DNA from: Clostridia bacterium
GTDB taxonomy: Bacteria; Bacillota; Clostridia; Oscillospirales; Acutalibacteraceae
Direction: 5' to 3'
Assembly: GCA_017396515.1 (NCBI GenBank)
Contig: JAFQLV010000072.1
Coordinates: 1 to 47,284, forward strand
Length of the DNA: 47,284 nt
Below, in pieces: positions 23,013 to 31,651 of this stretch. Position 1 is the stretch's first letter; every line of letters starts with the position of its first letter. A program made the position numbers and the translations under genes. Below the pieces are notes generated by a model. The model saw nothing but the letters and a program-made list of their open reading frames with translations. It was not told the DNA's origin and made no database searches.

Positions 23013-24041
23013 ATGAATATGGATTTCGTATGTAAGCTGCCCATACCAAAGGATATTAAGGAGCAGTATCCCTTAACAAAGCAGGCAATTGAAATTAAAG
23101 AGAAAAGAGATAAGGAAATCAGAGATATTTTTGAGGGTAAGGAAAGGAAGCTGATACTTGTTATCGGCCCTTGCTCTGCAGATAATGAAGACAGCGTTAT
23201 GGAATATATCTCACGCCTTGTACCCGTGCAGGAAAAGGTAAAGGATAAAATCCTCATTGTGCCGAGAATTTACACAAACAAGCCAAGAACAACCGGTGAC
23301 GGCTATAAGGGTATGCTTCATCAGCCTGACCCCAATGCTGCTGCAGACCTTATCAAGGGCATTGTTGCCATAAGAAAGCTTCATATGAGAGCAATCAATG
23401 AAACAGGCTTTCTTTGTGCTGATGAGATGCTCTATCCCGATAACTACCGTTATCTCTCAGACCTTCTCGGTTATGTTGCTGTCGGTGCCAGAAGCACTGA
23501 AAATCAGGAGCACAGATTAACTGCAAGCGGCATTGATGTACCCGTAGGTATGAAGAACCCCACAGGCGGAGACCTTGGTGTTATGATGAATTCAATCACT
23601 GCAGGTCAGCACAGCCACGACTTTATCTACAGAGGCTGGGAGGTAAAGAGCCACGGCAATGACCTTACCCACGCTATTTTAAGAGGCTATGTTGACGAGC
23701 TCGGTGTCAGCTACCCCAACTACCATTATGAAGATCTTCTTAAGCTCTGCCACCTTTATGCTGAGCGAGACTTAAAAAACCCTGCCGTTATAGTTGACAC
23801 AAACCATGCAAACTCAGGCAAAAAGTATCTTGAACAGCCCAGAATTGCCAAGGAAGTGCTTCATTCCTGCCGCCACAACAGCGATATTGATAAGATAGTC
23901 AAGGGCTTTATGATTGAAAGCTATATCGAAGACGGCACACAGAAGATAGGTGAGGGTATATACGGCAAGAGCATTACAGACCCCTGCATAGGCTGGGAAA
24001 AGACAGAAAGACTCATTTACGATTTAGCAGAGGTATATTGA
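23013..24041 (+). CDS. aroF: DAHP synthase, type I alpha (AroF/AroG-like)
   Basis: Protein of 342 residues from ATG 23013. VIGPCSADN (metal and PEP site), RIYTNKPRTTGDGYKG, GARSTENQEHR, KNPTGGD and DTNHANSGK are conserved blocks of the E. coli AroF/G/H class. It condenses PEP and erythrose-4-phosphate, the entry into the pathway. AGGAGG at 22998-23003 is 9 bases from ATG 23013; the ATG at 23007 would be too close. Placing the first enzyme at the 3' end of the operon is unusual in order but complete in content. A tiny ORF follows one base after the stop. Confidence 0.95.
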   Translation: MNMDFVCKLPIPKDIKEQYPLTKQAIEIKEKRDKEIRDIFEGKERKLILVIGPCSADNEDSVMEYISRLVPVQEKVKDKILIVPRIYTNKPRTTGDGYKGMLHQPDPNAAADLIKGIVAIRKLHMRAINETGFLCADEMLYPDNYRYLSDLLGYVAVGARSTENQEHRLTASGIDVPVGMKNPTGGDLGVMMNSITAGQHSHDFIYRGWEVKSHGNDLTHAILRGYVDELGVSYPNYHYEDLLKLCHLYAERDLKNPAVIVDTNHANSGKKYLEQPRIAKEVLHSCRHNSDIDKIVKGFMIESYIEDGTQKIGEGIYGKSITDPCIGWEKTERLIYDLAEVY

Positions 24042-24042
24042 T

Positions 24043-24132
24043 ATGTCATTTCAGGAAATTTTGTGGAATATAAAAATGTTTTTCGGCAGAATACTCGGTC
24101 TTTTCGGTATTCATTTTCCAATGCCGCTTTGA
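24043..24132 (+). CDS. 29-residue amphipathic peptide, likely member of the peptide family at 28087-29054
   Basis: Short ORF starting one base after the aroF stop (TGATATG junction) with AGAGG upstream. It begins MSFQEILWN, continues through a hydrophobic Phe/Ile/Leu-rich stretch and ends HFPMPL. Its core N-I-x6-I-L-x3-G-I has exactly the spacing seen in the 28361-28480 peptide (N-I-x6-I-L-x3-G-I), and both are followed by F-P within a few residues. It lacks the acidic tail of the four minus-strand genes. The junction implies translational coupling to the aromatic operon. Very short, so chance cannot be ruled out from one genome. Confidence 0.5.
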   Translation: MSFQEILWNIKMFFGRILGLFGIHFPMPL

Positions 24133-24170
24133 AAAAAACACAAAGAAAAAGTCAAGCGTAACCGCTTGAC
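24131..24170 (-). terminator. Terminator of the toxin mRNA (minus strand)
   Basis: A perfect 8-bp inverted repeat (24151-24158 with 24163-24170, 4-base loop) is followed on the minus strand by a long T-rich tract (complement of 24131-24150). It ends transcription of the small toxin gene. Confidence 0.7.
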
Positions 24171-24194
24171 AAGGATTTGATAATAATATATAAT
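24166..24194 (+). promoter_or_regulatory. Consensus promoter of the antisense RNA
   Basis: Perfect sigma-A hexamers TTGACA (24166-24171) and TATAAT (24189-24194) with the optimal 17-base spacer. No start codon with a ribosome site follows, so it is predicted to make a non-coding RNA. The -35 box is inside the stem of the minus-strand terminator. Confidence 0.75.
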
Positions 24195-24200
24195 GTAGCT

Positions 24201-24297
24201 GTAAGAAACGGTGCTACCGACAGACGGCGCACCCTCGTATGTAAATCAAGGAACTAATCGCCTCAATTTGCTAGAGAGTGGCGGTTAGTTTCCTTTT
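24201..24297 (+). ncRNA. Putative antisense antitoxin RNA (type I system)
   Basis: Predicted RNA of about 97 nt from the perfect promoter to a terminator hairpin (24250-24262 pairs with 24280-24293, one bulge and a G-U pair, then TTTT). The downstream arm of that hairpin is the complement of the toxin stop-codon region, so the RNA would base-pair with the 3' end of the toxin mRNA, as in TxpA/RatA-like systems. The 5' part contains a second GC-rich segment (about 24208-24236) likely to fold. The exact start is inferred from the promoter. Confidence 0.55.
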
Positions 24298-24359
24298 ATG
24301 GCTGCAATTAAAGCAGTAGCTGCGAAAAGAATAACAGCAATCATAGCTAAATATTCCAT
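24285..24359 (-). CDS. 24-residue hydrophobic peptide, candidate type I toxin
   Basis: MEYLAMIAVILF opens a single hydrophobic helix rich in Ala, Ile and Leu, ending in a short polar tail (IKGN), the layout of membrane-acting type I toxins and holin-like toxins of Firmicutes. A very strong ribosome site (AAGGAGG, minus strand 24375-24369) is 9 bases from ATG 24359; ATG 24365 would add two residues but is too close. The mRNA would run from the promoter at 24507-24536, with a leader of about 140 nt, to the terminator at 24131-24170. The frame stays open to 24806, but that upstream part lies antisense to the deacylase gene and beyond the toxin promoter. Confidence 0.6.
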   Translation of the reverse strand: MEYLAMIAVILFAATALIAAIKGN

Positions 24360-24383
24360 CAGCATCACCCTCCTTAATAATTT

Positions 24384-24418
24384 CAGAGGGCGAGATTTAT
24401 AAAAAGAACTGCCCTCTG
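24384..24418 (-). promoter_or_regulatory. Leader hairpin in the toxin mRNA
   Basis: A perfect 8-bp inverted repeat, CAGAGGGC (24384-24391) and GCCCTCTG (24411-24418), ends 8 bases before the toxin ribosome site on the minus strand. Long structured leaders that restrain translation are common in type I toxin mRNAs; that this one does so is inference. Confidence 0.5.
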
Positions 24419-24506
24419 ATTTGCAAATAATTATGTAAATCGTTTTCGAGGGCTTACCGCCTGCCGGTGTGATAGCACCTGAACTGTCTGTTGACAGTCT
24501 GCGGTA

Positions 24507-24536
24507 AGTATAGCATATAATGTGGAAGCTTGTCAA
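24507..24536 (-). promoter_or_regulatory. Promoter of the toxin mRNA
   Basis: On the minus strand TTGACA (24536-24531) and TATACT (24512-24507), spacer 18. An inverted repeat (ACTGTC at 24483-24488, GACAGT at 24493-24498) sits at the expected start site. On the plus strand the same bases offer TTGACA (24491-24496) and TATAAT (24516-24521) with a long 19-base spacer, possibly the promoter of the deacylase gene. Confidence 0.62.
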
Positions 24537-24558
24537 ATAGCGTATAAAGGAGCAAATT

Positions 24559-25020
24559 ATGTCAATTGAAAAAGTAAGAGAACACTTTAAAACACTTGGT
24601 ATTGCAGACAGAATAATGGAGTTTGATGTTTCAAGTGCAACCGTTGAGCTTGCGGCTGTTGCTGTGGGTGTTGAGGGTGCAAGAATAGCAAAAACTCTTT
24701 CATTCCTCGTCAGGGAGGAGCCTATACTCATCGTAACTGCAGGTGACGGCAGAGTCGACAACAAAAAGTATAAGGCCACCTTCGGGGCAAAGGCTAAAAT
24801 GCTCACTCACGAGCAGGCAGCCGAAATGATAGGCCACGCAGTGGGCGGAGTGTGCCCCTTTGCAGTCAATGAGGGTGTAAAGGTTTACCTCGATGAAAAC
24901 CTGAAGCGTTTTGAAACAGTTTTTCCGGCCTGCGGAAGCTCAAACAGTGCAATTGAGCTGACAATACCCGAGCTTGAGAAATATTCGGATTTTGTGCAGT
25001 GGGTGGATGTCTGCAAATAA
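24559..25020 (+). CDS. YbaK/EbsC-type aminoacyl-tRNA deacylase
   Basis: Protein of 153 residues covering one YbaK/prolyl-tRNA editing domain: AKTLSFLV, DNKKYKATFGAKAK (with the conserved catalytic-type Lys), GHAVGGVCPFAV and VFPACGSSNSAIEL. The family hydrolyses mischarged tRNAs such as Cys- or Ala-tRNA(Pro), acting in trans in the cytoplasm. Ribosome site AAAGGAG. It has its own probable promoter overlapping the divergent toxin promoter and is followed by the separately promoted SCIFF operon. Confidence 0.9.
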   Translation: MSIEKVREHFKTLGIADRIMEFDVSSATVELAAVAVGVEGARIAKTLSFLVREEPILIVTAGDGRVDNKKYKATFGAKAKMLTHEQAAEMIGHAVGGVCPFAVNEGVKVYLDENLKRFETVFPACGSSNSAIELTIPELEKYSDFVQWVDVCK

Positions 25021-25045
25021 AAAGGAAAAAACTTTGATATTACTA

Positions 25046-25074
25046 TTGATTTTAATTTTAAAAGCGTATATAAT
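25046..25074 (+). promoter_or_regulatory. Promoter of the SCIFF operon
   Basis: TTGATT (25046-25051) and TATAAT (25069-25074) with a 17-base spacer, 41 bases before the scfA start. Confidence 0.72.
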
Positions 25075-25115
25075 AGACTAAAGTTATTATGAGATTCCGA
25101 AGGGAGGATAATAAA

Positions 25116-25265
25116 ATGAAGCACATCAGAACAATCGAAACACGCAACCTTTGCGAAAGCGCAAAGAACGGTGGCTGCGGCGAATGTCAGACATCATGCC
25201 AGAGCGCTTGCAAGACAAGCTGCGGTATTGCTAACCAGGAATGCGAAAATAAGGAAAGCAAATAA
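25116..25265 (+). CDS. scfA: Six-cysteine ranthipeptide SCIFF precursor
   Basis: Peptide of 49 residues beginning MKHIRTIETRNL with the core GCGECQTSCQSACKTSC, an almost exact match to the SCIFF family. The six family cysteines are at 21, 24, 28, 32, 36 and 43. An additional Cys13 lies in the leader. The adjacent radical SAM enzyme installs thioether cross-links (Cys sulfur to a residue backbone), giving a ranthipeptide; signalling roles have been proposed for such peptides in clostridia. Strong ribosome site AGGGAGG. Too short to be found by length-filtered gene calling. Confidence 0.95.
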   Translation: MKHIRTIETRNLCESAKNGGCGECQTSCQSACKTSCGIANQECENKESK

Positions 25266-25280
25266 TTAAGGTAATAAGAT

Positions 25281-25299
25281 GCCGCCTATGAAAGGCGGC
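25281..25299 (+). promoter_or_regulatory. Intercistronic hairpin between scfA and scfB
   Basis: A perfect 6-bp GC stem (25281-25286 with 25294-25299, 7-base loop) is followed by a weak T-containing tract. It could act as a leaky terminator or RNA-stabilising element, so that more precursor than maturase is made. Confidence 0.45.
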
Positions 25300-25325
25300 A
25301 ATTCTTATGATTGGAGATAAAAACT

Positions 25326-26705
25326 ATGATACATCAGTATAAATTGGGCGGCTATAATATTGTGCTTGACATCTGCTCGGGTGCAGTGCATGTTGTGGAT
25401 GATGTTGCCTATGATATTATAGCTGACTTTGAAAGCAGGACAAAGGACGAAATAGTTGCCTCACTTTCTCAGAAGTATGCCGACGAAGATGATATATCCG
25501 AGCAGGATATTGCCGAATGCTATGAGCAGATTGTGTCACTTAAAAACAGCGGCAAGCTTTTCACTGCCGACACCTTCAGACCTATGGCAGGGGAGCTGAA
25601 AAGAAAGACATCAGGTGTAATAAAGGCGCTTTGCCTTCATGTTGCACATTCCTGCAATCTTAACTGTGCCTACTGCTTTGCCTCTCAGGGCAAATATCAG
25701 GGCGAAAGAGCACTTATGAGCTTTGAAACAGGCAAGAGAGCCCTTGATTTCCTTATAGAAAATTCAGGCACACGCCGTAACCTGGAGGTTGACTTTTTCG
25801 GCGGTGAGCCCCTTATGAATTGGGATGTTGTAAAGAAGCTTGTGGAATATGCAAGAAGCATAGAAAAGGAAAAGGGCAAGAATTTCCGCTTTACCCTGAC
25901 GACCAACGGTGTCAATATTGACGATGATGTTATAGAGTTTTCCAACCGTGAAATGAGCAATGTTGTTCTCAGTCTCGACGGCAGAAAAGAAATTCACGAC
26001 CGCTACAGAGTTGATTACAGCGGCAAGGGAAGCTGGGATCTGATAGTGCCCAAGTTTCAGAAGTTTGTTAAAGAAAGAGGCAACAAGGCCTATTATATGC
26101 GCGGAACCTTCACTCACGCTAACCCGGATTTTCTTGAGGATATAAAGCAGATGCTTGACTTAGGCTTTACGGAGCTTAGTATGGAGCCTGTTGTCTGCGC
26201 AAGCGGTGACCCCTCAGAGCTGACGCAAGAGGATAAGGCAGTTGTTCTTTCGCAGTATGAAAAGCTGGCTGAGCTTATGCTTGAAAGGGATAAGCAGGGC
26301 AAGCCCTTCACCTTCTATCATTATATGATTGACCTTAAGGGCGGTCCGTGCATTTATAAAAGAATAAGCGGTTGCGGCTCAGGCACGGAATATATGGCAG
26401 TTACACCCTGGGGCGACCTTTATCCCTGCCATCAGTTTGTCGGTGATGAAAAATTCCGTCTGGGCGATATATGGAAGGGCGTTTCAAACACTGCCGTGCA
26501 GGATGAATTTGCTTCTTGCAATGTCTATGCACGACCCGACTGCCACGATTGCTGGGCAAAGCTTTATTGCTCGGGCGGCTGTGCGGCTAACGCTTATCAT
26601 TCCACAGGCTCGGTAACGGGTGTTTATAAATACGGCTGTGAGCTTTTCAGAAAGAGAATGGAATGTGCCATAATGGTTGCCGTTGCCCGTGAACTGGGTG
26701 AATGA
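25326..26705 (+). CDS. scfB: Radical SAM SCIFF maturase (thioether-forming)
   Basis: Protein of 459 residues. The N-terminal domain (about 1-95, MIHQYKLGGYNIVLD) is a peptide-recognition region. The radical SAM cluster is C110-x3-C114-x2-C117 (CNLNCAYC), with FFGGEPLMNW as the SAM-binding motif. The C-terminal SPASM-type region has many Cys (CGSGTEYM, YPCHQF, PDCHDCWAKLYCSGGC) for auxiliary iron-sulfur clusters. It forms sulfur-carbon links in the scfA product. ATG 25326 has GGAGA upstream; the TTG at 25311 overlaps that ribosome site. It ends one base before the next gene (TGATATG). Confidence 0.95.
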   Translation: MIHQYKLGGYNIVLDICSGAVHVVDDVAYDIIADFESRTKDEIVASLSQKYADEDDISEQDIAECYEQIVSLKNSGKLFTADTFRPMAGELKRKTSGVIKALCLHVAHSCNLNCAYCFASQGKYQGERALMSFETGKRALDFLIENSGTRRNLEVDFFGGEPLMNWDVVKKLVEYARSIEKEKGKNFRFTLTTNGVNIDDDVIEFSNREMSNVVLSLDGRKEIHDRYRVDYSGKGSWDLIVPKFQKFVKERGNKAYYMRGTFTHANPDFLEDIKQMLDLGFTELSMEPVVCASGDPSELTQEDKAVVLSQYEKLAELMLERDKQGKPFTFYHYMIDLKGGPCIYKRISGCGSGTEYMAVTPWGDLYPCHQFVGDEKFRLGDIWKGVSNTAVQDEFASCNVYARPDCHDCWAKLYCSGGCAANAYHSTGSVTGVYKYGCELFRKRMECAIMVAVARELGE

Positions 26706-26706
26706 T

Positions 26707-28044
26707 ATGAACACGCCTATATGTGATTTTGTTTCTCGGTACGCGGGGGAGAGGGTGCTGAGACTTCATATGCCCGGCCACAAGGGAAAAAATATTCTCG
26801 GCTGTGAAGACAGAGACATAACCGAAATAAAAGGCGCCGACTCTCTTTATGAGGCTGAGGGCATTATAGCTGAAAGCGAAAATAATGCCTCAGAGCTTTT
26901 CGGCTGCAGAACATATTACAGCACAGAGGGCTCCTCGCAGTGTATCCGTGCAATGCTTTATCTCTGCTGCTTATATGCAAAAAGCCGGGGCAGAAAGCCT
27001 CTGATATATGCTGCAAGAAATGTGCATAAGGTCTTTTTGTACGCGGCGGCCTTGCTTGATTTTCAGGTGCAGTGGCTTTACGGCGAGGGTGAGAGCTATC
27101 TTTCCTGCAATATAAGTGCCGAAAAGCTTGAAAACACCCTTAAAAATGCACAAGAAAAGCCTGTGGCAGTATATATAACATCGCCCGATTATCTCGGAAA
27201 AGCTGCCGATATAGGTGCTTTGAGCAGAGTATGCCGTAAGCACGGAGTGCTTCTTGTTGTTGACAATGCCCACGGAGCATATCTGAAATTTTTACCTGAA
27301 AGCAGACACCCTGTTGACCTTGGTGCACATATCTGCTGTGATTCGGCACACAAGACTCTCAGGGTTTTAACGGGGGGAGCTTATCTTCACCTCAGTGATG
27401 ATTTGCCTGAGCTTTTCAGTGAAAATGCTAAAAGAGCTCTTGCGCTTTTCGGCTCCACGAGTCCATCATATCTTATTCTGCAGTCACTTGACAGGGCTAA
27501 CGCATATCTTGCGTCCTCTTATAAAAGGGAGCTTTGTGAATTTATCGGCAGAGTACACACACTTAAAGAAAAGCTTATAAATCACGGCTACACCTTATAC
27601 GGTGATGAGGAGCTGAAAATCACACTCTGCACAAAAGGCTACGGCTACAGCGGAAATGAGCTTGCCGATATTCTTCGCATGCAGGGGATTGAGCCTGAAT
27701 TTGCCGATAATGATTTTCTGTGTCTTATGCTCACACCGGAGCTTGACGGGAAATCTCTGCAAAGGCTTTATGAGGTGTTGGCAGCTATAGAAAAAAAGCC
27801 TGAGATAACTCTCAGACCTATAAAAAATTCCGTGCACGAAAAAGTGACGGATATAAAAACAGCAATGCTGTCCTTAGGGGAAACACTGCCTGTGCAAGAG
27901 TGTGTGGGCAGAGTGCTCTGTGAGCCATCAGTTTCATGCCCTCCTGCCGTGCCTGTGGTTATGTGCGGCGAGAGAATAAGCGAAAGCGACAAAGACGCAT
28001 TTTTATATTACGGCATAACACACTGCACTGTTATAAAAGAATAA
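26707..28044 (+). CDS. Orn/Lys/Arg decarboxylase-family PLP enzyme
   Basis: Protein of 445 residues with LHMPGHKG at the start, ITEIKGADSLYEAEG, VVDNAHGAYLKF and SAHKTL with PLP-binding Lys216, the signature set of the group of bacterial ornithine/lysine/arginine decarboxylases without the N-terminal response-regulator-like domain. It would make a polyamine (cadaverine, agmatine or putrescine) from a basic amino acid; which one cannot be told. Its start follows the scfB stop by one base, so it is co-translated with the SCIFF maturase. The C-terminal region (about 370-445) is short and diverged. Confidence 0.85.
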   Translation: MNTPICDFVSRYAGERVLRLHMPGHKGKNILGCEDRDITEIKGADSLYEAEGIIAESENNASELFGCRTYYSTEGSSQCIRAMLYLCCLYAKSRGRKPLIYAARNVHKVFLYAAALLDFQVQWLYGEGESYLSCNISAEKLENTLKNAQEKPVAVYITSPDYLGKAADIGALSRVCRKHGVLLVVDNAHGAYLKFLPESRHPVDLGAHICCDSAHKTLRVLTGGAYLHLSDDLPELFSENAKRALALFGSTSPSYLILQSLDRANAYLASSYKRELCEFIGRVHTLKEKLINHGYTLYGDEELKITLCTKGYGYSGNELADILRMQGIEPEFADNDFLCLMLTPELDGKSLQRLYEVLAAIEKKPEITLRPIKNSVHEKVTDIKTAMLSLGETLPVQECVGRVLCEPSVSCPPAVPVVMCGERISESDKDAFLYYGITHCTVIKE

Positions 28045-28051
28045 ATATAAA

Positions 28052-28088
28052 TGCCTCACTCCTTCCGAGTGAGGCAAGTTCTTTTTTT
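28052..28088. terminator. Bidirectional terminator after the SCIFF operon
   Basis: A perfect 10-bp stem (28052-28061 with 28067-28076, 5-base loop) followed by a T-run on the plus strand. On the minus strand it follows the 28087-28197 peptide gene and runs into a T-rich tract, so it can also end that transcript. Confidence 0.88.
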
Positions 28089-28197
28089 ACACAAGCTCTG
28101 TGGGCCAACCCTCTGTGTTTTCACCCTCATTTCTGAGAATTGCAACAACAAGTCTGTAAATATTGTTTACAAGATTTCTGATTATTGTAAGTAACAT
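28087..28197 (-). CDS. 36-residue amphipathic peptide, family member 1
   Basis: Starts MLLTIIRNLVNNIYRL and continues VVAILRNEGENTEGWPTELV to the stop. Compared with member 2 it keeps N-N-I-Y, I-L-(K/R)-x2-G and a P-x2-L ending, but its tail is less acidic. The helical part places Ile/Leu/Val on one face and Arg/Asn on the other. GGAGG lies upstream on the minus strand, and it has its own TTGACA promoter. The most diverged of the four tandem members. Function unknown. Confidence 0.68.
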   Translation of the reverse strand: MLLTIIRNLVNNIYRLVVAILRNEGENTEGWPTELV

Positions 28198-28244
28198 TTC
28201 AATTTCCTCCATATTATCAGTTTCAGGACTGTGCCTGTAGCTTA

Positions 28245-28273
28245 AGTTTATAATTATATAAGTTAAATGTCAA
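28245..28273 (-). promoter_or_regulatory. Promoter of peptide gene 1
   Basis: Minus strand TTGACA (28273-28268), 17-base spacer, TAAACT (28250-28245). The leader carries an inverted repeat (CAGG 28224-28227, CCTG 28234-28237). Confidence 0.55.
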
Positions 28274-28315
28274 TATATAAGATAAAATATAATAATAATT
28301 TTTAACAAAATTCCG

Positions 28316-28347
28316 TAAAAAACAAACTCCGCCGAGAAGCGGAGCTT
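28316..28347 (-). terminator. Terminator of peptide gene 2
   Basis: Minus-strand stem of 9 bp (28347-28339 with 28333-28324) followed by a T-run. Nearly identical to the terminator of gene 3. Confidence 0.8.
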
Positions 28348-28360
28348 ATCTTTGCTTTAA

Positions 28361-28480
28361 TTATTCAGCATCTTCTGTGGGGATGAGCTTCTCGGGGAAA
28401 TCAGCTTCAATACCTGCTGACTTGAGAATGTTTACGATCATAGCATAGATGTTGTTGAGTAAATCAATGATAAAATCCAT
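28361..28480 (-). CDS. 39-residue amphipathic peptide, family member 2
   Basis: Begins MDFIIDLLNNIYAMIVNIL, then KSAGIEADF, and ends with an acidic PTEDAE tail. Hydrophobic residues recur at i, i+3/4 and i+7 across the first 20 residues, so an amphipathic helix is expected; the peptide is net negative. There is no Cys, no leader-type GG cleavage site and no signal peptide. Ribosome site CGGAGGA. It shares its 5' leader, ribosome site, C-terminal codons and 50 bases of 3' flank with member 3, so the two are a recent duplication. It resembles phenol-soluble-modulin-like or leaderless peptides in shape only. Confidence 0.75.
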   Translation of the reverse strand: MDFIIDLLNNIYAMIVNILKSAGIEADFPEKLIPTEDAE

Positions 28481-28530
28481 TTCTGTGTCCTCCGTATTCA
28501 AAAATCTATGACATCTCTGTCACACCTAAT

Positions 28531-28558
28531 ATTTTACATATATTGATGAAAATGTCAA
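28531..28558 (-). promoter_or_regulatory. Promoter of peptide gene 2
   Basis: Minus strand TTGACA (28558-28553), 16-base spacer, TAAAAT (28536-28531). The leader has an inverted repeat (TGACA 28509-28513, TGTCA 28518-28522). Confidence 0.72.
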
Positions 28559-28605
28559 TATTTATTTTAATTTTTATTAATATTTCTTAATATTTTCTTA
28601 AAGGT

Positions 28606-28635
28606 AAAAACAAGCCCCGCCGAAAAGCGGAGCTT
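28606..28635 (-). terminator. Terminator of peptide gene 3
   Basis: Minus-strand stem (28635-28627 with 28621-28612) followed by GTTTTT. Same design and almost the same bases as the gene 2 terminator. Confidence 0.8.
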
Positions 28636-28648
28636 ATCTTTGCTTTAA

Positions 28649-28771
28649 TTATTCAGCATCTTCAGCGGGGAAGAGGTCGGGAGCAAAAGCTGATACATCA
28701 ACGCCTGCTGACTTGAGAATGCTCAGAACCATATCGTAGATTGATTCGAGAATGTTCTTGATGAAATCCAT
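28649..28771 (-). CDS. 40-residue amphipathic peptide, family member 3
   Basis: Begins MDFIKNILESIYDMVLSIL, continues KSAGVDVSAF and ends FPAEDAE. It shares MDF, (N/E)-x-IY, S/N-ILKSAG and the EDAE tail with member 2. The conserved codons and flanks but changed helix residues suggest selection for the pattern rather than the exact sequence. Ribosome site CGGAGGA, start ATG. Monocistronic with its own promoter and terminator. No function is known to me. Confidence 0.75.
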   Translation of the reverse strand: MDFIKNILESIYDMVLSILKSAGVDVSAFAPDLFPAEDAE

Positions 28772-28817
28772 TTCTGTATCCTCCGTATAAAAATATTCCG
28801 TGCCTTGGCACACCTTT

Positions 28818-28845
28818 ATTTTACATAATTTTCAAGGTTTGTCAA
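28818..28845 (-). promoter_or_regulatory. Promoter of peptide gene 3
   Basis: Minus strand TTGACA (28845-28840), 16-base spacer, TAAAAT (28823-28818). The leader begins with the same AGGTGTG block as gene 2 and holds an inverted repeat (GTGCC 28800-28804, GGCAC 28807-28811). Confidence 0.72.
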
Positions 28846-28879
28846 TAAGTTTTAAGTTATTTCTGCATTGTTAACAATT

Positions 28880-28916
28880 AAAATAAAAAATAAACCCTGC
28901 CATATGGCAAGGTTTA
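28880..28916 (-). terminator. Terminator of peptide gene 4
   Basis: Minus-strand hairpin (28916-28906 with 28901-28891, one mismatch, 4-base loop) followed by a T-rich run. Confidence 0.75.
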
Positions 28917-28928
28917 TATAAGCTCAGA

Positions 28929-29054
28929 TTATTCGCCGTCTTCTTCGGGCTTTTCGAGCTGATCGGGAATTCTGTCGGTGTTAAGACCGAAGAAAGTAAG
29001 AAGGTCTGTGATGAACTTGATGATTGCGTTGTAGAAGTCAATGAAAAAATCCAT
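28929..29054 (-). CDS. 41-residue amphipathic peptide, family member 4
   Basis: Begins MDFFIDFYNAIIKFITDLL, then TFFGLNTDRIPDQL, ending KPEEDGE. It keeps MDF, the hydrophobic heptad-like spacing, a Gly after the helix, a P-x2-L motif and a strongly acidic tail. Ribosome site GGAGG. It is the promoter-distal neighbour of pcrA, transcribed divergently from it. Its leader is shorter than those of genes 1-3 and shows no hairpin. Confidence 0.75.
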   Translation of the reverse strand: MDFFIDFYNAIIKFITDLLTFFGLNTDRIPDQLEKPEEDGE

Positions 29055-29087
29055 AGTTTTTTCCTCCGAGTTAATTATTGTAATTAT

Positions 29088-29116
29088 ATGATAACTCTTT
29101 TTTGCGGGAATGTCAA
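29088..29116 (-). promoter_or_regulatory. Promoter of peptide gene 4
   Basis: Minus strand TTGACA (29116-29111), 17-base spacer, TATCAT (29093-29088). Confidence 0.65.
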
Positions 29117-29180
29117 CCTAATATAAAATATTTAATATTTTTATATATATCACAAATAGGCTTGAATTTCTTAAAATGTA

Positions 29181-29209
29181 TTGTATTTTTTTGCGTTTTA
29201 TAGTAAAAT
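29181..29209 (+). promoter_or_regulatory. Promoter of the helicase gene
   Basis: TTGTAT (29181-29186), 17-base spacer, TAAAAT (29204-29209), 36 bases before the pcrA start. Confidence 0.55.
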
Positions 29210-29245
29210 TCAATCTGTATGACTATAAATATTTTGAGGTAAGAA

Positions 29246-31651
29246 ATGGCAGATAAGGAATTTTTAGAATTAAGAAGAAAGATAATTGAAAAAGACTTTC
29301 AGCACATGAACGATAAGCAGAAGCAGGCTATCTTTCAGGTCAGGGGTCCTGTGCTTATTCTTGCAGGTGCAGGCAGCGGAAAGACAACGGTTATAGTAAA
29401 CAGAATTGCAAATATAGTTAAATACGGCGATGCATATAACAGCAAGGAGTGTGCTTTTGAGCCTTCAGTTCGCGACCTTCGTAGTATGAGAGCTTATCTT
29501 GACGGCGACGAAAGCGTGCTTTTTGATATAGAGGATTTGCTCAGTGTTGAGCCTGCTCGTCCATGGCAGATTCTTGCCATCACCTTCACAAATAAGGCGG
29601 CAAATGAGCTTAAGGAGCGTCTTGAAAAAATGCTTGGCGATCAGGCAAAGGATATCTGGGCATCAACCTTCCATTCCTCCTGCGTGAGAATACTTCGCCG
29701 TGACGGTGAGGTTTTAGGCTACACAAAGCATTTCACAATTTATGACACAGATGACACAAAGCGTCTTATCAAGGAATGTCAGAGACAGCTTAATATTTCC
29801 GATAACACTATTTCATACAAGGCAATTATAGGTGAAATCAGCCGCGCAAAGGATAACCTCATTTCCCCGGCAGAGTACGAGAAAAAGGCGGCAAACGAAA
29901 AAGACTCACGAATGATGAAAATTGCCTCTTGCTATAAGATGTATCAGAGCGAGCTGAAAAAGGCAGATGCCATGGATTTTGACGACATTATTGTCAACAC
30001 GGTTAATCTGCTTGAAAAATATGACGATGTCAGAGAATACTATCAGAAAAAATTCAAATATATAATGGTTGACGAATATCAGGATACCAACCACGCACAG
30101 TATAAGCTGACGGAGCTGCTTGCAGGCAAGCACAGAAACATCTGCGTTGTGGGTGACGATGACCAGAGCATTTACCGCTTCAGAGGTGCAACCATTGAGA
30201 ATATTCTTTCCTTTGAGCACCGCTATGCCGAAAGCCAGATTATCCGTCTTGAGCAGAATTACCGTTCCACACAGACTATACTTGATGTGGCCAACGAGGT
30301 TATCTCAAACAACCACAAGCGCAAGGGCAAGAGCCTGTGGACATCAAACCCGGGTGGCGATAAGGTTGTTGTCAACACCGCTTACGATGAGAGTGACGAG
30401 GCAAAATTCATTGCCGAAACCATAGAAGAAAATGTTGCTTCGGGCAAATTCGGTTTCAGTGACCACGCAGTGCTTTACAGAATGAATGCACAGTCAAACT
30501 TTATTGAAAAGGTTCTTGTCAGAGCAGGTATTCCCTACCGTATAATCGGCGGTCACCGCTTCTATGAGAGACAGGAAATCAGAGACGCAATTGCATATCT
30601 CACCGTTGTCAATAATCCAAGCGATAATATCAGATTGCGCCGTATTGTCAATGTTCCCAAAAGAGGCATTGGTGAGGCTACTCTCAATAAGGCGGCAGAA
30701 ATATCAACGGGTCTGGGCATAAGCATGTTTGAGGTTTTCAAACAGTCAGAGGAATTTGATGCTCTCAGAAGAAGTGCAAAAAAGCTCATAGCCTTCACTC
30801 AGATGATAGATGAGCTTCGTGAAAACCTTGATAAGGTGTCTCTTGATGAGCTGTTTACAGAGATTATCCACAAAACTCAGTACCTCGGCCACCTCCGTCT
30901 TGATAAGGAAAAAGGGGAGGAAAGAGAAGAAAACATCTATGAGCTTATCTCTAACCTTAAAACCTTTGAGCAGGAAAATGAGGAAGCAACCCTTTCAGGC
31001 TTCCTTGAGGAAGTTGCTCTTATGACAGATATCGATAACTATAACGCTCAGACGGATGCTGTTGTGCTTATGACAATTCACTCGGCAAAGGGCCTTGAGT
31101 TCCCCGTTGTGTTCCTGCCGGGCATGGAGGAGGGAATTTTCCCGGGTATACAGAGTATGTACAGCCCCGACGACATAGAGGAGGAAAGGCGTCTTGCCTA
31201 TGTGGGTATCACAAGAGCAAAGCGTAACCTTTATATTTCTCACGCAAACCTTCGCATGCTTTTCGGTACCACCTCAAGAAACCTGCCCTCAAGATTTCTG
31301 GTTGAGGTGCCCGAAGCACTTATTGAGCGCACAGGCAGACGCGACACCTCACAGATGAATAACTATTCACAGCCCACCAGAGCCGATGCGGACTTTGAGC
31401 GTTCACAGGGCTATTCAAGATATATGGGCACAGGCTATCTTTCAAAAATCAATCAGAAGTCTCAGCCTCAGAAGCAGGAGGCTCCCAAGGTCAGCTATGC
31501 TGTGGGAGACACTGTTATCCACAAGGTTTTCGGTCAGGGTGTTATACTCTCAAGCAAGCCTATGGGCAACGACTCAATGCTTGAAATAGCCTTTGAAAAA
31601 GCAGGCACTAAAAAGCTTATGGCAAATTACGCCAAGCTTCAGAAAAAATAA
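29246..31651 (+). CDS. pcrA: ATP-dependent DNA helicase PcrA/UvrD
   Basis: Protein of 801 residues, superfamily 1A helicase. Motif I GAGSGKTTV, motif Ia AITFTNKAA, motif II VDEYQDTN, GDDDQSIYRFRGA (III), EQNYRS (IV), TIHSAKGLEF (V) and YVGITRAK (VI) are all present. The C-terminal Tudor-like domain (about 750-801, VGDTVIHKVFGQG) is as in PcrA, where it contacts RNA polymerase. It unwinds DNA in repair and clears transcription complexes. There is an insertion of about 40 residues between motifs I and Ia (around 62-104) compared with B. subtilis PcrA. The gene is followed 13 bases later by a secreted hydrolase gene. Confidence 0.95.
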   Translation: MADKEFLELRRKIIEKDFQHMNDKQKQAIFQVRGPVLILAGAGSGKTTVIVNRIANIVKYGDAYNSKECAFEPSVRDLRSMRAYLDGDESVLFDIEDLLSVEPARPWQILAITFTNKAANELKERLEKMLGDQAKDIWASTFHSSCVRILRRDGEVLGYTKHFTIYDTDDTKRLIKECQRQLNISDNTISYKAIIGEISRAKDNLISPAEYEKKAANEKDSRMMKIASCYKMYQSELKKADAMDFDDIIVNTVNLLEKYDDVREYYQKKFKYIMVDEYQDTNHAQYKLTELLAGKHRNICVVGDDDQSIYRFRGATIENILSFEHRYAESQIIRLEQNYRSTQTILDVANEVISNNHKRKGKSLWTSNPGGDKVVVNTAYDESDEAKFIAETIEENVASGKFGFSDHAVLYRMNAQSNFIEKVLVRAGIPYRIIGGHRFYERQEIRDAIAYLTVVNNPSDNIRLRRIVNVPKRGIGEATLNKAAEISTGLGISMFEVFKQSEEFDALRRSAKKLIAFTQMIDELRENLDKVSLDELFTEIIHKTQYLGHLRLDKEKGEEREENIYELISNLKTFEQENEEATLSGFLEEVALMTDIDNYNAQTDAVVLMTIHSAKGLEFPVVFLPGMEEGIFPGIQSMYSPDDIEEERRLAYVGITRAKRNLYISHANLRMLFGTTSRNLPSRFLVEVPEALIERTGRRDTSQMNNYSQPTRADADFERSQGYSRYMGTGYLSKINQKSQPQKQEAPKVSYAVGDTVIHKVFGQGVILSSKPMGNDSMLEIAFEKAGTKKLMANYAKLQKK

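Follow-up and report, generated by a model that had tools for sequence, protein, structure and literature searches.

Four short genes at the locus

The window analysed here, meaning the whole 47,284 nt stretch of DNA, comes from a Clostridia bacterium of the Acutalibacteraceae (assembly GCA_017396515.1, contig JAFQLV010000072.1), and an array of small genes occupies its positions 28,052-29,054. The four minus-strand ORFs of 36, 39, 40 and 41 aa that the initial annotation had picked out lie exactly where it placed them, each with a GGAGG sequence 8 nt 5' of its ATG:

28929-29054, minus strand: m4, 41 aa, amphipathic helix and acidic tail; ribosome-binding site GGAGG at 29067-29063
28649-28771, minus strand: m3, 40 aa; GGAGG at 28784-28780
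28361-28480, minus strand: m2, 39 aa; GGAGG at 28493-28489
28087-28197, minus strand: m1, 36 aa, the most divergent member, helix net charge +3; GGAGG at 28210-28206

The m2 and m3 peptides are 54% identical, and m1 is related to the other members by a profile match only. The net charges of the four peptides are -1, -6, -6 and -7. Reading of the sequences bore out the MDF start in m2-m4, the acidic tails EDAE, EDAE and EEDGE, and the lack of a signal peptide or leader on m1-m4; an alignment of the four contains no Cys. The motif I-L-(K/R)-x2-G had been ascribed to the whole family and is present in three of its four members, the exception being m4, which has LLTFFG. The array had also been described as lacking a neighbouring modification enzyme. 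There is in fact a radical-SAM maturase (25311-26705) 1.4 kb off, but it belongs to the adjacent SCIFF peptide, a six-cysteine ranthipeptide (TIGR03973) that together with its maturase (TIGR03974) covers 25116-26705 on the plus strand.

The helical pattern proposed for m1-m4 stands up to computation. Over residues 2-22 the hydrophobic moment muH is 0.52-0.70 with a peak at 100 degrees, exceeding that of composition shuffles in every case (P 0.0002-0.0006). A structure model of m3 has a helix at residues 2-21 with a pLDDT of about 90 and an uncertain end. The computed helices show moderate hydrophobicity and are of the amphipathic kind, not the membrane-spanning kind. Since the helix moments exceed shuffles in all four peptides and the m3 model contains a matching helix, the data fit a peptide helix that would lie on the membrane surface and not span it.

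Each gene appears to be transcribed separately

A consensus scan of 28000-29300 found 13 promoter-like sites, compared with 6.1 in shuffles. The best 4 of these 13 contain TTGACA, have 10-11 of 12 matches and each lie just 5' of one ORF. Folding placed a stem-loop 3' of all four ORFs, while a stricter terminator scan recovered those of m1 and m4 only. Both the promoter and the terminator calls are consensus matches.

29088-29116, minus strand: m4 promoter, TTGACA-17-TATCAT, 11/12 matches
28818-28845, minus strand: m3 promoter, TTGACA-16-TAAAAT, 11/12 matches
28531-28558, minus strand: m2 promoter, TTGACA-16-TAAAAT, 11/12 matches
28245-28273, minus strand: m1 promoter, TTGACA-17-TAAACT, 10/12 matches
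28890-28917, minus strand: m4 terminator hairpin, 12 pairs then a T run in the scan; also folded
28606-28641, minus strand: m3 terminator-like hairpin, by folding (-25.2 kcal/mol for 60 nt); absent from the stricter scan
28318-28353, minus strand: m2 terminator-like hairpin, by folding (-20.4 kcal/mol for 60 nt); absent from the stricter scan on this strand
28052-28076, minus strand: m1 terminator hairpin, by scan and folding; scores on the plus strand too
28799-28812, minus strand: small m3 leader hairpin, by folding (z -1.4, weak); listed as terminator-like by the scan
28507-28524, minus strand: small m2 leader hairpin, by folding (z -2.2)

Because a TTGACA promoter, a GGAGG site and a 3' hairpin accompany every one of the ORFs, we read m1-m4 as four putative monocistronic transcription units. 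Leaders across the wider peptide class described below were long enough to fold in 41 of 50 cases, and 18 of those 41 gave z below -2 against mononucleotide shuffles. An alignment of 13 hairpin leaders yielded no consensus pair.

Orthologues and selection

A profile built from eight sequences found relatives at E below 1e-8 in four other genomes (G019, G009, G005 and G002) among the 34 searched for the genus. G019, a yak-cecum MAG, was also the sole locus returned by one scan of genome contigs, a kind of scan from which the window's own genome may be missing. In G019 an m4-like gene comes first and an m3-like gene second, with aroF on one side of the pair and a ybaK-like gene on the other, whereas the window array lies beside pcrA. 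Compared with its G019 orthologue, m3 retains 33 of 37 residues (dN 0.08, dS 0.82), and 13 of the 19 nucleotide differences fall at third positions. For m4 and its orthologue 19 of 40 aligned residues are identical (dN 0.36, dS 1.47). No cross-species orthologue of m1 or m2 was found in the genomes compared. Broken frames and a dN/dS near 1 had been named as the signs of a spurious call; what we found for m3 and m4 was open frames and purifying selection.

Among 15 between-species pairs of the class, pN/pS ranges from 0.16 to 0.70, and because of this span some of the class peptides are, as judged from their sequences, only moderately constrained. That the class is a real coding one we regard as nearly certain.

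A genus-enriched class of acidic amphipathic peptides

The arrangement of TTGACA, 38-68 nt, GGAGG, 5-11 nt and ATG occurs 53 times in the window's own genome and twice in a backward control. Eighteen of the 53 starts give ORFs of at most 60 aa, 12 of which are amphipathic peptides by reading. A narrower pattern with ATG-GAN-WT has 41 occurrences spread over 21 of the 34 genus genomes; 24 of these starts lead to ORFs of 29-50 aa, all of them amphipathic (muH 0.42-0.67). Run on wider sets, this pattern gave matches in 52 of 150 genomes of the family and in 51 of 149 of the phylum. In loci taken from part of these matches, other genera of the family gave small ORFs at 4 of 30 starts, one of the 30 being amphipathic by reading, and the phylum gave small ORFs at 4 of 28 starts with none amphipathic.

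Pooling produced 50 small-ORF rows, of which 5 were dropped by eye and 45 kept. The class so obtained is defined by shape and gene layout, with membership judged by eye and without implying common descent. Its 45 peptides are 26-56 aa long with a mean net charge of -4.1 (43 negative, 2 neutral, none positive), and amphipathicity exceeds composition shuffles at P<0.05 in 29 of them. Judged at the sequence level, then, the window array is one branch of a genus-enriched class of acidic amphipathic peptides encoded at many loci. The initial annotation had treated the four genes as a single family of their own; the array proves to be a branch of something genus-wide.

The larger class of tiny acidic helix peptides is apparently unnamed and probably acts on membranes or surfaces. 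Pfam gave no model at E up to 5 for m1-m4, and among the class peptides scanned none was matched at cut-off by Pfam, NCBIfam or PHROGs. The best PDB match had an E of 0.11, which is chance level. No description of the class was found in the literature searched, a coverage that takes in few subscription journals. A phage origin was considered and rejected, as no relative was found among viral contigs and PHROGs had no match for ten class peptides (m3 and m4 from the window among the ten).

Genomic surroundings

Sets of two to four genes occur in G000 (contigs C52, C15 and C47), G019, G024, G012, G016 and G011, and the array loci differ between species. The pcrA gene is present in all 34 genomes; of 30 pcrA loci scanned, that of G000 has the four peptides m1-m4 and that of G011 has two about 1 kb off, and at those of G015, G029 and G026 an amphipathic stretch occurs within a longer ORF of 62-75 aa. 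Behind aroF at least one amphipathic small ORF is found at 10 of 24 loci, including that of the window:

24043-24132, plus strand: 29-aa amphipathic ORF directly behind aroF, a possible further class member; no model match

The end of this ORF resembles that of the first G024 peptide located behind aroF.

Small proteins that combine a signal peptide and an amphipathic core are found beside the relatives in G009, G002 and G005 (the last by its visible part) and close to the G011 and G000 C15 arrays; one G023 protein with a signal peptide contains a helix of similar kind, a weak match at E 0.0057. Signal peptides were judged by eye, and some of the genus genomes are incomplete. No secreted protein adjoins the window array. 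No exporter was recognised among the neighbours read, nine of which were scanned with Pfam, and no immunity or transport gene was recognised beside the arrays read, where part of the neighbours were scanned.

Several other features were seen at these and further loci. A related peptide pair, single in G013, adjoins a terminase small-subunit ORF in G000, G019, G024 and G013 (L134, L222, L223 and L207); in G000 the terminase large subunit, portal and capsid follow, and in G019 the opposite side is taken by a protein with a UvrB-interaction domain (Mfd-like). A family of small proteins (L013:1182-2035, L132:1132-2024 and L227:479-859) combines a signal peptide, an LPxWT motif and an amphipathic core rich in Lys; in G009 and G000 it lies beside an XRE-type regulator. 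At L113:580-1503, on the minus strand, an alpha/beta hydrolase (BD-FAE) has a hydrophobic-amphipathic start in place of the usual signal peptide. Within the window, a 26-aa hydrophobic ORF (24285-24365, minus strand) is faced by a TTGACA promoter-like site on the plus strand (from 24174), and by eye the region 24205-24550 looks like a type I toxin-antitoxin pair; it has no NCBIfam match. Open frames of about 9,300 to 10,700 codons are present in G021, G013, G011, G012, G003, G031, G001 and G005.

Cationic tails on larger proteins

Larger proteins of the genus carry an amphipathic tail of the approximate pattern FFxKIxxFFxxIIxWFxxLF behind a Pro/acid linker. All 30 loci read, which are the best matches (L155-L184), have it at the very C-terminal end, 0-8 residues before the stop, and at E up to 0.5 tail matches occur in all 34 genus genomes. 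Net charge was counted for 18 of the 30 tails and is positive in all 18. Ten tail proteins were inspected; a signal-peptide start was seen by eye in 8 of the 8 with a visible N-terminus, two of these 8 lying at a locus edge, and the remaining two of the ten, L167 and L176, had no N-terminus in view. No model covers the tails of nine tail proteins scanned. The tail is possibly an unnamed surface-retention signal, as read from its sequence and position. Co-assembly of the free acidic peptides with these tails was considered and dropped, since the counts of the two are anticorrelated over 34 genomes (Spearman -0.52, P 0.0018); the peptide pattern in this comparison needs TTGACA and GGAGG and may overlook peptides from other subclades, for instance those of G010, G028 and G027.

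A possible mode of action and its alternatives

The explanation that we tentatively favour is that these are leaderless membrane-surface peptides working like the phenol-soluble modulins (PSMs) of staphylococci. 

Strong sigma-A-type promoters, together with a leader hairpin in some members, would give abundant mRNA, and each peptide would form a single helix at the lipid-water interface, with the acidic tail keeping it soluble and limiting harm to its maker. More speculatively, the peptides may reach the outside without a leader, as staphylococcal PSMs do, and once there may act like surfactants or coat the envelope, in the service of adhesion, spreading or mild competition. The secreted small amphipathic-core proteins near relatives and the weak G023 match hint at such an outside role; the lack of a leader, and of any exporter recognised among the neighbours read, speaks against it. 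We count in favour of PSM-like working the helices, the lack of a leader, the dN/dS below 1 of m3 and m4, the strong promoters, the genus enrichment and the acidic charge, and against it the lack of a recognised exporter nearby or of a secreted neighbour at the window array, and the fact that amphipathicity is significant in only part of the class. Also against it, an acidic tail is not known as a feature of PSMs. The initial annotation had suggested undescribed membrane-active peptides, PSM-like or leaderless, or small membrane-protein regulators; this suits the anatomy and the lack of any model at cut-off for the peptides scanned, and its four-gene scope was too narrow.

The peptides might instead stay inside the cell, a possible though more doubtful reading in which the helix would bind the inner membrane face or one membrane protein and tune it, the copies serving different partners. 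The missing signal peptide, the lack of a recognised exporter nearby, a helix of moderate hydrophobicity and amphipathic type, unlike a membrane span, and the purifying selection on m3 all agree with this; however, the housekeeping neighbours differ between species and so indicate no inside partner, nor do the small secreted helix proteins found close to several relatives. It is decidedly improbable that the arrays encode multi-peptide leaderless bacteriocins permeabilising neighbouring bacteria. Such bacteriocins are typically cationic, with genes for immunity and transport next to those of the peptides, whereas the class is almost uniformly negative and no such genes were recognised beside the arrays read, where part of the neighbours were scanned, even though the absence of a leader, the length of 36-41 aa, the tandem layout and the divergence between species would suit them.

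Type I toxin genes repressed by antisense RNAs would likewise be very short, hydrophobic and tandem, with strong promoters and leader hairpins. In the consensus scan of 28000-29300, however, opposite-strand promoter-like sites have at most 9 of 12 matches, which is chance level, against 10-11 for the sense promoters; of six Rfam matches at E up to 1 in 23900-29400 none reached the gathering score, and the computed helices are of the amphipathic, not the membrane-spanning, type. We rejected this reading for want of an antisense promoter comparable in strength to the sense promoters, and consider it very improbable. Less credible still are AgrD-like quorum-signal precursors made up of amphipathic leader, signal core and acidic tail. 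AgrD has an amphipathic N-terminal helix and an acidic C-terminal part, which the layout and the Pro-containing acidic C-terminus of the window peptides recall, but the four contain no Cys, and eight aligned sequences share no conserved Cys or Ser core. AgrB, which is over cut-off in 3 of 34 genus genomes, had no match in G000 (72% complete), G019, G024, G009, G005 or G002, and with neither core nor AgrB match this candidate was rejected too.

To return to the PSM-like explanation, a broader version of it seems to us rather unlikely: a PSM-like system outside staphylococci, in which each genome in a genus of gut Clostridia would encode acidic amphipathic peptides that export themselves, as many as a dozen or more of them and each behind its own strong promoter, with fast-diversifying and moving tandem arrays whose products coat or condition the surroundings. 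If translated at the level that their promoters suggest, the peptides are possibly among the more abundant small proteins of this gut genus. If they are exported, surfactant-type peptides would not be confined to staphylococci, and direct searches for them in gut metaproteomes would be possible.

Comparison with known systems

Type I toxins, like the window peptides, are hydrophobic proteins of very small size, encoded in tandem behind strong promoters; they differ in having an antisense RNA gene and a membrane-spanning rather than amphipathic helix. AgrD shares the amphipathic N-terminal helix and acidic C-terminal part, the difference being the Cys core, which the window peptides lack, and the AgrB partner, which had no match in G000 (72% complete). 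Leaderless bacteriocins, such as aureocin A53 and lacticin Q (both named in PMC11580447), are alike in lacking a leader, in their comparable length and in their multi-gene sets; the window peptides are net acidic where these are cationic, and no immunity or transport gene was recognised with them.

The closest likeness that we weighed is to the PSMs, which share amphipathic helices with surfactant properties and whose PSM-beta genes are clustered (PMC5442197), and to LspU, a 21-aa leaderless peptide that is reported to exit via the PSM transporters and to trap lipases (PMC12607899). All are short leaderless peptides with an amphipathic helix, often with several genes together (PMC5442197, PMC12607899). 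The window peptides have the amphipathic alpha-helix, as computed from muH and the m3 model, and on sequence reading no signal peptide; they show no sequence relation to known PSM families, with the Pfam searches in which short peptides can be missed giving no match, their host is an obligate gut member of the Clostridia, and no exporter was recognised among the neighbours read. In beta-type PSMs the helix lies in the C-terminal part and the genes form one operon (PMC5442197), whereas the window peptides have an N-terminal helix followed by an acidic tail and are encoded behind four separate promoters.
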